From: Nanobdellota archaeon
GTDB lineage: Archaea > Nanobdellota > Nanobdellia > Pacearchaeales > GW2011-AR1
Direction: 5' to 3'
Length of the DNA: 56,236 bases
Assembly: GCA_018815925.1 (NCBI GenBank)
Contig: JAHIWS010000028.1
Coordinates: 1 to 56,236, forward strand
Positions 25,990 to 30,608 of the stretch are shown piece by piece. The notes under the pieces are model-generated. The model saw only the letters and a program-made list of their open reading frames with translations, searched no databases and was not told the DNA's origin. Both the position numbers and the translations under genes were made by a program. The first letter of the stretch is position 1, and each line of letters opens with the position of its first letter.

Positions 25990-26913
25990 ATGAAGGTGAT
26001 AGATCATATAAAGAGAGCAGATTCTACTTTAATTAGTTTTGAAATAACACCTCCCAAAAGAGAAGGTTCTCTAAATGATGTTTTAGAACCTGTTGAAAGA
26101 TTACAAAAATATAACCCTTCTTTTATTGATGTTACTTATCATCCAATTAGAATTGAATACGAAGAAAATGAAGGTGGAATAGAAAAAATATTAAGAAGAA
26201 AAAATATGGGAACAAGATCTATTTGTTCAAGTATACAAAGAAGTGGAATAGATGCTGTTTCTCATGTTTTATGTAGGGGTTTTACTAAAGGAGAAACAGA
26301 AGAATATCTTAGAGAAACACAGTTTGACGGAATAAATAATATTTTGGTTGTTCAAGGGGATGATACAGGATATAGAAGACCAAAAGAAAAAGGAGTTAAA
26401 ATTTTTGAACATTCTTCAGAGATGATTCCTTACATAAAAGAAAGTTTTGGAAATTATTTTTGTATAGGAGTAGCAGGATATCCTGAAAAACATTATTGTT
26501 CACCAAATCCAGAAACAGATTTAAAATATCTTAAACAAAAAGTTGATACAGGGGCAGATTATATTGTAACCCAAATGGTTTTTGACAATAAAAGACTTTT
26601 TGAATTTATAGATAAATGTAGAAAAAATAATATAGAAGTCCCAATCATTCCTGGTTTAAAACCAATACTTAAAAAATCTCAGTTTACAAGCATCCCTAAA
26701 AATTTTTATGTAGATATTCCTCTTGAGATTTCAGAAAAAATAGATAATTCAACTAAAGAAGAGATAGTGAAAATTGGGATAGAAGAGCTAACAAAACAAG
26801 CTCAAGAATTAATTAATAATAAATTTCCTGTTTTGCACTTTTTTGTTTATGAAAAACAAGATCCAGAAGCAATTTCACAAGTTCTTGATAATTTAAATTT
26901 TAAGAAATCTTGA
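25990..26913 (+). CDS. metF: Methylenetetrahydrofolate reductase (MetF)
   Basis: 307-aa TIM-barrel flavoenzyme that reduces methylene- to methyl-tetrahydrofolate (or a related pterin). SFEITPPKREGSLNDVLEPV is the N-terminal signature with the catalytic Glu. FIDVTYHP, NILVVQGDD, IGVAGYPEKHYCSPNPETDL and GADYIVTQMVFD follow, the last with the substrate-binding Gln. PIIPGLKPI replaces the usual PIMPI(Q)N block. It converges with the methionine-synthase operon, overlapping it by 14 nt, and supplies the methyl donor for the pathway proposed there. Confidence 0.92.
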   Translation: MKVIDHIKRADSTLISFEITPPKREGSLNDVLEPVERLQKYNPSFIDVTYHPIRIEYEENEGGIEKILRRKNMGTRSICSSIQRSGIDAVSHVLCRGFTKGETEEYLRETQFDGINNILVVQGDDTGYRRPKEKGVKIFEHSSEMIPYIKESFGNYFCIGVAGYPEKHYCSPNPETDLKYLKQKVDTGADYIVTQMVFDNKRLFEFIDKCRKNNIEVPIIPGLKPILKKSQFTSIPKNFYVDIPLEISEKIDNSTKEEIVKIGIEELTKQAQELINNKFPVLHFFVYEKQDPEAISQVLDNLNFKKS

Positions 26914-28123
26914 GTTTTCTGTCTTGAATATAATCTAAGTTATTTCTTAAAGCAGTTTCTGCTTTTTGAAGTTCTGTTGCAATATATCCATAATGTCTTT
27001 TACCATTTTGATCCTCATTTGTCAATTTAAATTTGAGAACAGAATTAAGTATGGCTTCTGCATTATCTCCATATATTATTTTTTGAAGAATGTGGTTATA
27101 ATCATAATTTTCAACTCTTATTTGTTTATTTTGTTTATCAAGAAGAATATAAAAATATCCTTTTTTATCCCAATCTTTGTCTGTTAATTTCTTTTTTTTA
27201 GCCTTTATTGTATTTATTCCATAAAATTTATTTCTTGCCTTAACCATATTTTCTAATTTTTGATATGCTATTTTTCTTAAACCAAGTCCAAACAACCCAC
27301 AATCTGGATCAAGAATTATTTTATCTTCTCCAAACACTTTCACAGCTTTTTCAATATTTTTAACAATTTCTTCTACAGATTCAATCCTACCATCGTAAGA
27401 GTTTACACACCCATACCCTATTTTCTGACTAAACCCTGTTTTTGATATTTGGTTGATTAATTCTGGATTTGCTACAAATTCATGATCAAGAATATCTACT
27501 TGATATTTTGTTAATTTTTCAAATATTTTAGAAACATCTCCACACACATGCAATGCAATGGGTTTTTTTATTTCTTTTCTAACAATTGATATTAGTTTTT
27601 TTCCATATTCAGGATATTCTATAGAAAACATAGGTTCATCAATTTGTATATTATCTACTTCGTATTCAATTGCTTTTGCTTCTTTATTTAAAATTTCTGC
27701 AAAATCAAAAGCAAGTTCTTCAATATTTTTATAACCAGAATCACGTGTTATTTTACAGGTTTTTGAAAGTGTATAAGGTCCTGTAAGGATGCCTTTTATT
27801 TTTTTGTTTTTTGGTATTAAATTTTTAGCATAAACTAAATCATACAAGGTTATGGGTTTTACAAATTTTAGCTTTGATATTATGTATTTTTCCCCTTTAA
27901 TTTCTTTTATTCCAGAGATTCTTCTTGTAAATTCAGAAATCATATCTGTCCTGACCTGCCCTGTTGAAATTATATCAATCCCAGCAGAGAGTTGATCTTC
28001 TACTGCTTTTTTAATATGTGGAAGAAAAAATTCAGACCAACTTGTTTTATTTTCTTGTGCATTTCTTATGTGTTTTATTGTAATTGGTATTGGATAGCTT
28101 CCAACAACACTTGTCTCAATCAT
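26900..28123 (-). CDS. Core MetE-type (cobalamin-independent fold) methionine synthase
   Basis: Homocysteine methyltransferase with only the MetE catalytic domain, plus a C-terminal addition; 407 aa. TSVVGSYPIP is the family start. NIQIDEPMFSIEYP is substrate-binding. Zinc ligands are visible as His192 and Cys194 (LHVCGDV), Glu215 (DHEF) and Cys275 (DPDCGL). The folate-binding N-terminal half of bacterial MetE is absent, as in core enzymes that accept methyl from a corrinoid protein. Residues about 315-400 (GYFYILLDKQNKQIRVENYD, then YGYIATELQKAETALRN and LDYIQD) resemble the DUF4346 pattern, from memory. Its ATG overlaps the mtrH stop (ATGA). Confidence 0.85.
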   Translation of the reverse strand: MIETSVVGSYPIPITIKHIRNAQENKTSWSEFFLPHIKKAVEDQLSAGIDIISTGQVRTDMISEFTRRISGIKEIKGEKYIISKLKFVKPITLYDLVYAKNLIPKNKKIKGILTGPYTLSKTCKITRDSGYKNIEELAFDFAEILNKEAKAIEYEVDNIQIDEPMFSIEYPEYGKKLISIVRKEIKKPIALHVCGDVSKIFEKLTKYQVDILDHEFVANPELINQISKTGFSQKIGYGCVNSYDGRIESVEEIVKNIEKAVKVFGEDKIILDPDCGLFGLGLRKIAYQKLENMVKARNKFYGINTIKAKKKKLTDKDWDKKGYFYILLDKQNKQIRVENYDYNHILQKIIYGDNAEAILNSVLKFKLTNEDQNGKRHYGYIATELQKAETALRNNLDYIQDRKLKIS

Positions 28124-28989
28124 GTTATTTTTGATTTTAGCCCAAAATATCCTTTATTGGCTTCTGCATTTATTTTATCTGTCATTTTAACACTATTGAA
28201 AATGTGTTCAGCAATTTTTAAAGGACCATAAATTAAAAAATCAGCACCCATTAATTGAGCCAAAGAATTAGCAGATGCAATTGAGTTTGTATATTCAGGA
28301 GTATCTTTTTTATCTTTGATATATTTCCAAGACTCTATAAGGTTTATCATTGCACATCCTGTTGCAAGTCCTGTTTCTGATTTAATTACCATTATTGACC
28401 TTAAAACTTCTCCAGCCATATTTTCATTATCAAATGCTTTTGTTCCAGGATCAACAAGCATATTTTCAATATTTGCTTTTTTTGCATAAGGGACTAATCT
28501 ATTTTCTAATAAATTTAAGGAACCATCTGCATTTGGATGAGTTATATCAGAAGCAAGTAATATAGCAGACTTTATTTTATGTTTTTTTAGTAAATTAACT
28601 TCTCCTTCATCTGTTAGAGGATTTATGGAATTATAGATGATCCTATCTTGTAAATTGTTTTTTGTAACATATTCCAAAACATCTTTTTTTAATTCTAATT
28701 CTCCCCATGGAAGATCTAATAAAAATGGTTCTGAGATTTGTTTTGCAATAAAATCAAGACTAGTTTTAATATCTTCTTTTCTTCTTATAAATAAATCAAC
28801 AGAAGCAGGAATATTAAAATTATCAGAAAGAGTTTTTTGTGTCCTAAGTCCTTCAATAATAGTTTCTTTGTTTTTTTCAGTGATTTTTCTTATTCCTCCA
28901 AACAACACAGTAGAATATTCACCTGGCTGCCCCCCAATTTCCCAATTTTCTATTTTACAAATTTTTGGTTTTGTTTGAAAATGAAACAT
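28120..28989 (-). CDS. MtrH-like methyltransferase subunit
   Basis: 289 aa, TIM barrel of the MtrH family. In methanogens MtrH moves the methyl group from methyl-tetrahydromethanopterin to the cobamide on MtrA. FHFQTKPKICKIENWEIGG, then QPGEYSTVLFGGI matches the family N-terminus (IGGQPGEYPT). PFLLDLPWGELEL, IIYNSINPLTDEGE, NMLVDPGTKAF and GLATGCAMINLIESWKY are further family blocks, and MGADFLIYGPLKIAEHIF is near the end. No other membrane Mtr subunits (B-G) are present, so a soluble use is inferred: charging MtrA for methionine synthesis. Tightly placed, 1 nt after mtrA and overlapping metE. Confidence 0.88.
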   Translation of the reverse strand: MFHFQTKPKICKIENWEIGGQPGEYSTVLFGGIRKITEKNKETIIEGLRTQKTLSDNFNIPASVDLFIRRKEDIKTSLDFIAKQISEPFLLDLPWGELELKKDVLEYVTKNNLQDRIIYNSINPLTDEGEVNLLKKHKIKSAILLASDITHPNADGSLNLLENRLVPYAKKANIENMLVDPGTKAFDNENMAGEVLRSIMVIKSETGLATGCAMINLIESWKYIKDKKDTPEYTNSIASANSLAQLMGADFLIYGPLKIAEHIFNSVKMTDKINAEANKGYFGLKSKIT

Positions 28990-28990
28990 T

Positions 28991-29569
28991 TTATCTTCTC
29001 ATAATATAAAAATTATTTAAATTTATTTTTGAATGAATAGCAATATTATCTTGAATGAATATACCTAAATTTTCTGCTTTTTTTAATTTAACTTTATAAG
29101 GACAACTCATTGGTGAACTGTTTTTTTCTAATAATTTTTCTATTTTACTTTTTATTTTTTTAATATCTTTTTCTCCAAGCATATTCACTAAAGTAATTTG
29201 ATTTCTAAACCTCTCCCTCACTTTTCCAATTTCTTCAATAGGAAGTTTTGGGTCTTTTGCTCTTGTATTTTTTATAGTAATTATATTTGTTTTTTTATCT
29301 TCAGTATAGCCTTGATTATAAAAAGAAATTAATGCATCTCCTGGATAATGTCCATTAACATCTCTTCCACAAACAACCAAATATCTTATGTTTTTATTAG
29401 AAAGAATATTTGCAAGTATTCTTGTTACCCCAAGATTTTCAGTCATTACTTTACCATAAATTGCAACTTTATTTTTATCAAATGAAAAATTATCTAAAAG
29501 AGTTAGAACAGCTACTGAACTTTTTTTATTACCTATTTCATATTCCCCTGGAATTAGTTTCCAATTCAT
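28991..29569 (-). CDS. MtrA-like corrinoid protein, soluble
   Basis: 192 aa. LIPGEYEIGNKKSSVAVLTL and GKVMTENLGVTRILANILSN, then NIRYLVVCGRDVNGHYPGDA match MtrA of methanogens. His74 in VNGHYPG corresponds to the His that binds cobalt in MtrA. The C-terminal membrane anchor of methanogen MtrA is missing; the C-terminus (IHSKINLNNFYIMRR) is polar, so the protein should be cytosolic. First gene of the mtrA-mtrH-metE run. Expected role: carry a methyl-cobamide from MtrH to the core MetE enzyme. Cobamide biosynthesis or uptake genes are not in the window. Confidence 0.85.
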   Translation of the reverse strand: MNWKLIPGEYEIGNKKSSVAVLTLLDNFSFDKNKVAIYGKVMTENLGVTRILANILSNKNIRYLVVCGRDVNGHYPGDALISFYNQGYTEDKKTNIITIKNTRAKDPKLPIEEIGKVRERFRNQITLVNMLGEKDIKKIKSKIEKLLEKNSSPMSCPYKVKLKKAENLGIFIQDNIAIHSKINLNNFYIMRR

Positions 29570-29663: not shown

Positions 29664-30608
29664 ATGAAACACAACTTAAAAATAACAATTATTCTTTTGT
29701 CAATGTTTCTTATTACACAATTTATAGGGTTAGGTGTTATTCATGCAGATCCTTTTAATATTAATATGGTTGTGAATGGAACAATTCAAAAAGTTCCAAA
29801 TCCTTCTTTATCTTGGATTTCTCCTCCAGAAGCTGAAGCAGGAAGTGATTTTTGGACAAAGTTTTTTCCCTCAATTATTATAGCATTTATAGTAGCAGTA
29901 TCTTTATTATTTTTATTAAGTAAATTTAAATTAGAATTTATCTTAAAAGCATGGTTCTTTCTTGTTGTGACTTTTGCTATTTGGCTCACTATTTATTCTT
30001 TTGAAATACTTGTTCCCTTTGTAATTTCTCCAACATTGGCTCTGATTATTCCAACAATCATAGCACTTCCCTTAGCCATTAAAAAAATATTTGGAAGGAA
30101 TTTTTTAGTTCATAATTTTACAGAGTTATTAGTTTATCCTGGAATTGCTGCTGTTTTTGTTCCTATTTTGAGTTTTTGGACAATAATAGCTCTTTTAATT
30201 GTAATTTCCTTATATGATATGTGGGCTGTCTGGCATTCAGGAATAATGCAAAGTATGGCTAAATATCAGATAGATAAGCTTAAGATTTTTTCTGGATTTT
30301 TTGTACCTTATGTTTCAAAAAAAGTAAAGATTAAATTAAAAAAACTTAGCAAATCCCAGTTAAAAAAGAAAAAAATAAAGGCAAATGTTGCTATTTTAGG
30401 AGGGGGGGATATTATTTTTCCAATTATTACAGCAGGAGTAATGTTAAGAACCCTTGGAATAATTTCTGCTTTGCTTGTTATAGCAGGAGCAACACTAGGC
30501 CTTGCAACATTGTTTTTCTTAGCAGAGAAGAAGAAGTTTTATCCTGCAATGCCTTTTATTACAGCAGGAATTTTCATAGGGATTATTTTAGGTTGTTTTG
30601 TTTTTTAA
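29664..30608 (+). CDS. Presenilin-like intramembrane aspartyl protease
   Basis: 314 aa with about nine membrane helices and an N-terminal signal-like segment. The family's three motifs are in order: YD at Asp185 (ISLYDMWAVW), GGGD at Asp249 (AILGGGDIIFP) and PAMPF (294-298, the PAL position). A basic cytoplasmic loop of about 35 residues (KKVKIKLKKLSKSQLKKKKI) separates the two Asp helices, as usual. Archaeal members cleave membrane-spanning peptides. Divergent from mtrA. Convergent 4-nt overlap with the next gene. Confidence 0.9.
   Translation: MKHNLKITIILLSMFLITQFIGLGVIHADPFNINMVVNGTIQKVPNPSLSWISPPEAEAGSDFWTKFFPSIIIAFIVAVSLLFLLSKFKLEFILKAWFFLVVTFAIWLTIYSFEILVPFVISPTLALIIPTIIALPLAIKKIFGRNFLVHNFTELLVYPGIAAVFVPILSFWTIIALLIVISLYDMWAVWHSGIMQSMAKYQIDKLKIFSGFFVPYVSKKVKIKLKKLSKSQLKKKKIKANVAILGGGDIIFPIITAGVMLRTLGIISALLVIAGATLGLATLFFLAEKKKFYPAMPFITAGIFIGIILGCFVF

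Follow-up and report, generated by a model that had tools for sequence, protein, structure and literature searches.

What is the role of homologues of MtrA and MtrH, two subunits of the Na+-pumping Mtr complex, when they are encoded next to a core methionine synthase? This question is raised by a locus in the window, a stretch of 56,236 nucleotides that represents one entire contig (JAHIWS010000028.1) of the 930-kb, 88%-complete genome of a Nanobdellota archaeon (assembly GCA_018815925.1). The small size of this genome, its archaeal genes and relatives that likewise have small genomes would suit a DPANN-type archaeon. On the minus strand, genes for an MtrA-like corrinoid protein, an MtrH-like methyltransferase and a MetE-type core synthase follow each other in this order, with a gap of 1 nt between the first two and an overlap of 4 nt between the last two, and a convergent metF overlaps the 3' end of the synthase gene by 14 nt. 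This four-gene layout had been described in a first-pass annotation of the sequence, and all the open reading frames (ORFs) were found where it had placed them, with Pfam assignments in agreement. We consider it likely that the locus encodes a dedicated, soluble, corrinoid-dependent methionine synthase built of separate modules, of the same cassette type as in Thermoplasmatota without McrA. In such a synthase, MetF would convert methylene-tetrahydropterin to methyl-tetrahydropterin, MtrH would transfer the methyl group from methyl-pterin to a cob(I)amide bound to MtrA at His74, methyl-MtrA would dock on the barrel of the core synthase (MesA), and a zinc-bound homocysteine thiolate would accept the methyl group there to give methionine. 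We infer these catalytic steps and the direction of flow; what was observed of domains, residues, gene order, phylogeny and the absence of McrA from cassette carriers is given below.

MesA is the methylcobalamin:homocysteine methyltransferase of methanogens (Schroeder & Thauer 1999; Price et al. 2021, PMC7857596). The MetE protein of the window was assigned to the MesA-type core synthases because its score against NCBIfam NF002119/PRK00957 (Table 1) exceeds the equivalog cut-off of 258; some Thermoplasmatota MesA score slightly below it (246.3 and 256.2). The protein contains one Meth_synt_2 catalytic domain (PF01717 over residues 4-296), and a weak PF08267 match (106-242) falls inside the same barrel. 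The zinc ligands H192, C194, E215 and C275 are present, as are the homocysteine residues S9, Q56 and D162, for which Ser/Gln/Asp were described in MesA and MesC (Price et al., PMC7857596), and all seven are kept in 41 of 41 sequences of the cassette alignment. The window MesA is 41% identical to a Methanosarcinales MesA (G427), while the criterion of Price et al. (at least ~40%) refers to the characterised MesA of M. thermautotrophicus instead. The protein had been claimed to be a core MetE without the folate-binding half. The single catalytic domain and the four zinc ligands bear this out, but the protein is not the catalytic half alone, and a DUF4346 domain at its C-terminus (PF14251 match over approximately residues 319-401) had been overlooked.

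In MtrA, His74 (codon 29348-29350), the predicted lower cobalt ligand, corresponds in alignment to the His that binds cobalt in solved MtrA structures (5laa/8q3v/5l8x), and Glu44 is the predicted hydrogen-bond partner of His74. The pair aligns with His84/Glu54, where the cobalt ligand His84 is hydrogen-bonded to Glu54 (PMC4915002). Both residues are invariant in 40/40 cassette sequences, so the corrinoid-binding residues are retained on alignment. Judged by these residues, the protein is an MtrA-type corrinoid protein, and cobamide binding is predicted for it. With its 192 residues it ends ahead of the membrane anchor found in the MtrA of the Mtr complex, in line with the soluble, anchorless MtrA of the first-pass annotation. 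A C-terminal tail with D174, H179 and I182 occupies the place of the anchor and was seen in cassette proteins only (0 of 62 other MtrA). At the C-terminus of MtrH, Y281-F282 occurs in all 40 cassette sequences and in at most 1 of 98 other MtrH. The window MtrA and MtrH keep these cassette-only residues despite an identity of only about one third. The MtrH protein matches both solved MtrH and MtgA, and D92, N120, D180 and N216 are invariant against both and kept throughout the cassette alignment (40/40); by analogy with AcsE/MeTr, we take these four residues to be pterin contacts. From its domain and invariant residues, the protein is an MtrH-type methyl-pterin methyltransferase. No further Mtr subunit was found beside MtrA in the window or recurring in the cassette flanks, which argues against a Na+-translocating Mtr complex.

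Table 1. Features of the locus, with positions counted in the window
Feature	Position	Strand	Evidence
metF (methylene-tetrahydropterin reductase)	25990..26913	+	PF02219 1.5e-61; TIGR00676 240 bits, under the equivalog cut-off of 293.7
MesA-DUF4346 fusion ORF (core MetE)	26900-28123	-	PF01717 6.9e-38; PF14251 8.9e-13
MesA-type core methionine synthase domain, residues 1-305	27209..28123	-	NF002119/PRK00957 287.8 bits
DUF4346 domain (PF14251, 'PterinBD-DUF4346'), residues 306-407 of the MesA fusion	26900..27208	-	PF14251 8.9e-13
MtrH-like methyl-pterin:corrinoid methyltransferase, 289 aa	28120..28989	-	PF02007 2.6e-42
MtrA-like soluble corrinoid protein, 192 aa	28991..29569	-	PF04208 3.4e-34

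Upstream of the operon, a divergent gene (29664-30608) encodes a presenilin/signal-peptide-peptidase-like membrane protease (PF06550).

The same set of modules was found in other archaea. When the MtrH alignment was scanned against 84,980 species, the best match came from a Thermoplasmata archaeon (L033), in which MetV, MetF, MtrA, MtrH, MesA and DUF4346 are encoded in one run. Among Thermoplasmatota, MtrH is present in 58 of 340 genomes, and in 40 of the 51 neighbourhoods that were read it is adjoined by MesA. In 37 of these 40 loci all four modules were recognised; they invariably share one strand, their order is MtrA-MtrH-MesA-DUF4346, and DUF4346 is free-standing. In one of them (L194) MtrA lies about 6 kb off. 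The three remaining loci comprise two that end near DUF4346 at a contig end (L192, L207) and one without a recognisable MtrA or full-length MtrH (L216). In the window the order is unchanged, but DUF4346 is fused to the C-terminus of MesA and is 32-41% identical to the free-standing cassette DUF4346. McrA was searched in the 340 Thermoplasmatota genomes, a set to which the window's own genome does not belong. It was found in none of the 40 cassette carriers, whereas of the 11 genomes in which MtrA-MtrH occur without MesA, 10 have it (Fisher p 8.6e-10, uncorrected for relatedness among genomes), and thus the cassette is a feature of genomes without McrA. The recurring order of four modules in about 40 such Thermoplasmata points to a dedicated methionine route, and no publication describing an MtrA-MtrH-MesA-DUF4346 cassette was found in full-text literature searches, which covered few subscription papers or preprints. 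Of the route proposed earlier, from MetF through MtrH and MtrA to MetE without methanogenesis, the part from MtrH to MetE is upheld by these McrA-less genomes with their fixed order and by the retained binding residues, and the MetF link has backing from the three loci described below. Another explanation is that MtrA and MtrH serve some other methyl flow, such as one that loads pterin from an external donor or one in a branch of the Wood-Ljungdahl pathway, and that MesA is a mere neighbour that tops up methionine. For the orphan MtrAH of other archaea, a role in supplying the Wood-Ljungdahl pathway has indeed been suggested (PMC9635834), and MtgA, a relative of MtrH, methylates tetrahydrofolate from a corrinoid protein, as its name states. 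We regard this explanation as unlikely, given that MesA and DUF4346 are the only constant partners in the 37 loci and that MesA requires a corrinoid donor (PMC7857596), which is encoded beside it in the form of MtrA. No further same-strand gene recurs in most cassette flanks, and a donor-specific methyltransferase does not recur in them.

MetF is probably the source of methyl-pterin, on the basis of the convergent gene in the window and of three loci in which MetF adjoins MesA and MtrH and heads the operon (L033, the odinarchaeotal L111 and the baldrarchaeotal L166). The Odinarchaeota and Baldrarchaeota loci (L111:4163-6915 and L166:7178-9945) are MetF-MesA-MtrH operons with no MtrA or DUF4346 adjoining, and because MtrA is not beside them, their corrinoid partner must lie elsewhere. 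A different arrangement was observed in Thorarchaeota (L107:412-8377), where MetV-like, MetF, MtrH, MtrA, a second MtrH and an ASKHA-like protein (a possible corrinoid activator) are encoded on one strand with no MesA nearby; another locus (L083) resembles it at MtrH-MtrA-MtrH. Borrarchaeum carries two core-MetE-like genes in tandem (L168:7198-9206), with approximately 31-33% identity to the cassette MesA.

Several observations weigh against a methionine synthase of this kind. In 39 of the 40 Thermoplasmatota loci, the cassette has no MetF beside it. DUF4346 has no known function, and it has no solved relative by sequence and no clear fold match (best Z 6.7, among unrelated proteins). Across 371 genomes of the window's phylum, MtrH was found in a single one, the window's own, and among 76 closer relatives a full-length MesA also occurs in the own genome only, with two other matches that are weak and cover the DUF4346 part. 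The co-occurrence of the gene set, which had been named as a check, is therefore absent from the sampled relatives. Single-family searches of the own genome, at its 88% completeness, found no FecCD/BtuC-type permease, so that cobamide uptake, part of the proposed check for cobamide salvage, is unexplained; they also found no FolD, SHMT or GcvT, leaving the origin of methylene-pterin unexplained.

The uniqueness of the operon among the sampled genomes of the phylum might mean that it was brought in from another organism by an assembly or binning artefact. This is very improbable. The operon lies mid-contig among archaeal housekeeping genes, on a contig that holds archaeal 16S and 23S rRNA; its GC content, its GC content at third codon positions (GC3) and its codon use are like those of the neighbouring genes; and the window differs from every Thermoplasmatota copy in its fused MesA-DUF4346 and in its long branch. 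In a careful tree the window MtrH falls within the cassette MtrH clade (support 98/97), as a long branch beside all the Thermoplasmatota copies, and a quick tree of 138 rows gave the same placement. Grouping it with the McrA-linked MtrH of Thermoplasmatota was disfavoured (approximately unbiased test, p-AU 0.028). In a tree that included thymidylate-synthase fusions, the window MtrA was placed without support, and MtrA on its own is not long enough for a placement. Because the window forms a single long branch adjoining the Thermoplasmatota cassette clade, we infer horizontal acquisition, and the match in GC content and codon use with neighbouring genes makes any transfer an old one and a binning error unlikely. 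Most likely, then, the window's archaeon gained a Thermoplasmatota-type cassette by an old transfer, and the idea that the locus shows a simple ancestral form of the pathway is not supported.

MtrH was used as the marker in the phylum in place of MtrA, because the MtrA matches examined proved to be thymidylate-synthase fusions or variants. MtrA matched 47 of the 371 genomes, and the matches examined were MtrA-ThyA-DUF4346 fusions or variant forms, a different protein from those of the operon. Many genomes of the phylum thus encode an MtrA-like domain, a thymidylate synthase and DUF4346 in one protein (L002-L030; e.g. L002:1492-2967, L003:406-1944 and L018), with the order MtrA-DUF4346-ThyA in L003. 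In most of these fusions the MtrA domain no longer has its cobalt-ligand His, and a few retain it (6/29 thymidylate-synthase-type fusions). Since DUF4346 constantly accompanies MtrA domains, it probably docks MtrA or binds pterin. A profile comparison did not support DUF4346 as a degenerate MtrA copy. Modelled separately, the domain has a predicted strand-strand-strand-helix-helix fold (predicted local distance difference test, pLDDT, 72), better than in the full-length 407-aa model, where the MesA barrel is good and the DUF4346 part stays below pLDDT 50. The Pfam label 'PterinBD' and the fusion to thymidylate synthases, which use methylene-pterin, would also fit a scheme in which MesA-DUF4346 takes the methyl group directly from a methyl-pterin bound to DUF4346, while MtrA and MtrH do something else. 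Such a scheme is doubtful, as DUF4346 accompanies MtrA in the contexts examined and the cobalt ligand is kept in every cassette MtrA, against the small minority of the fusions. Tentatively, MtrA and DUF4346 may together be a second, independent family of cobamide/pterin carrier modules plugged into archaeal one-carbon enzymes. Non-methanogens would combine them with MtrH and MesA into a modular methionine synthase, and small-genome archaea would carry them in one protein with thymidylate synthase, mostly without the cobalt ligand. If this is true, one role of orphan MtrAH outside methane metabolism would be to serve in such a methionine cassette.

The own genome appears to have no other enzyme for the same reaction. 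No other MetE-like gene was found in it, and none of its six proteins with a B12 domain (PF02310) is MetH-like in size or layout, in agreement with the earlier claim of a route without MetH. These six proteins cluster on two contigs (G000 C10 and C13; L219-L224), and five of them carry the radical-SAM motif CxxxCxxC. Either the missing supply genes are hidden in the unassembled 12% of the genome, or the cell obtains methyl-pterin and cobamide from another source. We hold at less than even the possibility that the module chiefly remethylates homocysteine for the S-adenosylmethionine cycle of a methionine-scavenging symbiont supplied with methyl-pterin and cobamide by its neighbours, and does not make methionine de novo. 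The small genome, the undetected FolD, SHMT and GcvT, and family relatives without any such synthase are consistent with it; the chemistry would be identical, so the role would differ and the mechanism proposed for the corrinoid-dependent synthase would stay the same.

How does the cassette compare with known systems? MesA was reported in methanogens only, with the MtrA of the Mtr complex predicted as its methyl donor (Price et al., PMC7857596), and a later study added that the MtrA and MesA genes are close together in a few genomes (PMC11378808). The window protein shares with methanogen MesA the single MetE catalytic domain, the same zinc and homocysteine residues (the MesA/MesC-type Gln among them), a score above the PRK00957 cut-off and MtrA as predicted donor, but the cassette has a dedicated soluble MtrA and its loader MtrH in the same operon, an added DUF4346, and carriers without McrA. 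On our best reading, the prediction that MtrA feeds MesA in methanogens here takes the form of a dedicated cassette in non-methanogens. So far, the link from MtrA to MesA has been a prediction based on distribution, and what MtrA and MtrH do outside methanogens has been described as unclear. The cassette of McrA-less genomes opens both points to direct tests, as it consists of four small soluble proteins and calls for neither a membrane complex nor a methanogen. It also provides a first functional context for DUF4346. With the Na+-pumping Mtr complex (MtrA-H) the cassette shares MtrA and MtrH homologues and the half-reaction from methyl-pterin to cobamide, whereas its MtrA has no anchor, no other Mtr subunit accompanies it, its MtrH forms a separate clade, and homocysteine takes the place of coenzyme M as the predicted acceptor. 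Methanogens also have extra soluble copies of MtrA, which are likewise short and cytoplasmic with His84/Glu54 (Wagner et al. 2016, PMC4915002), but the MtrA of the cassette is distinguished by a conserved C-terminal tail of its own and by its fixed place in the operon. Asgard and other non-methanogen archaea also have MtrA and MtrH without McrA (PMC9635834, PMC11291895). There they were not linked to methionine synthesis; Adam et al. called their role unclear (PMC9635834) and the Asgard study did not settle where the methyl group goes (PMC11291895), whereas the cassette has the acceptor enzyme in the same operon. The core-MetE of Dehalococcoides (MesB) is similarly supplied by a corrinoid protein, but it belongs to another family and its predicted donor is the corrinoid iron-sulfur protein (CoFeSP) of the Wood-Ljungdahl pathway (PMC7005905). 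MetH carries out the same overall reaction, from methyl-pterin via cobamide to homocysteine, while the cassette uses other corrinoid and homocysteine modules on separate proteins, with no reactivation domain seen, and thereby adds a modular B12-dependent methionine synthase with a corrinoid part unlike that of MetH.

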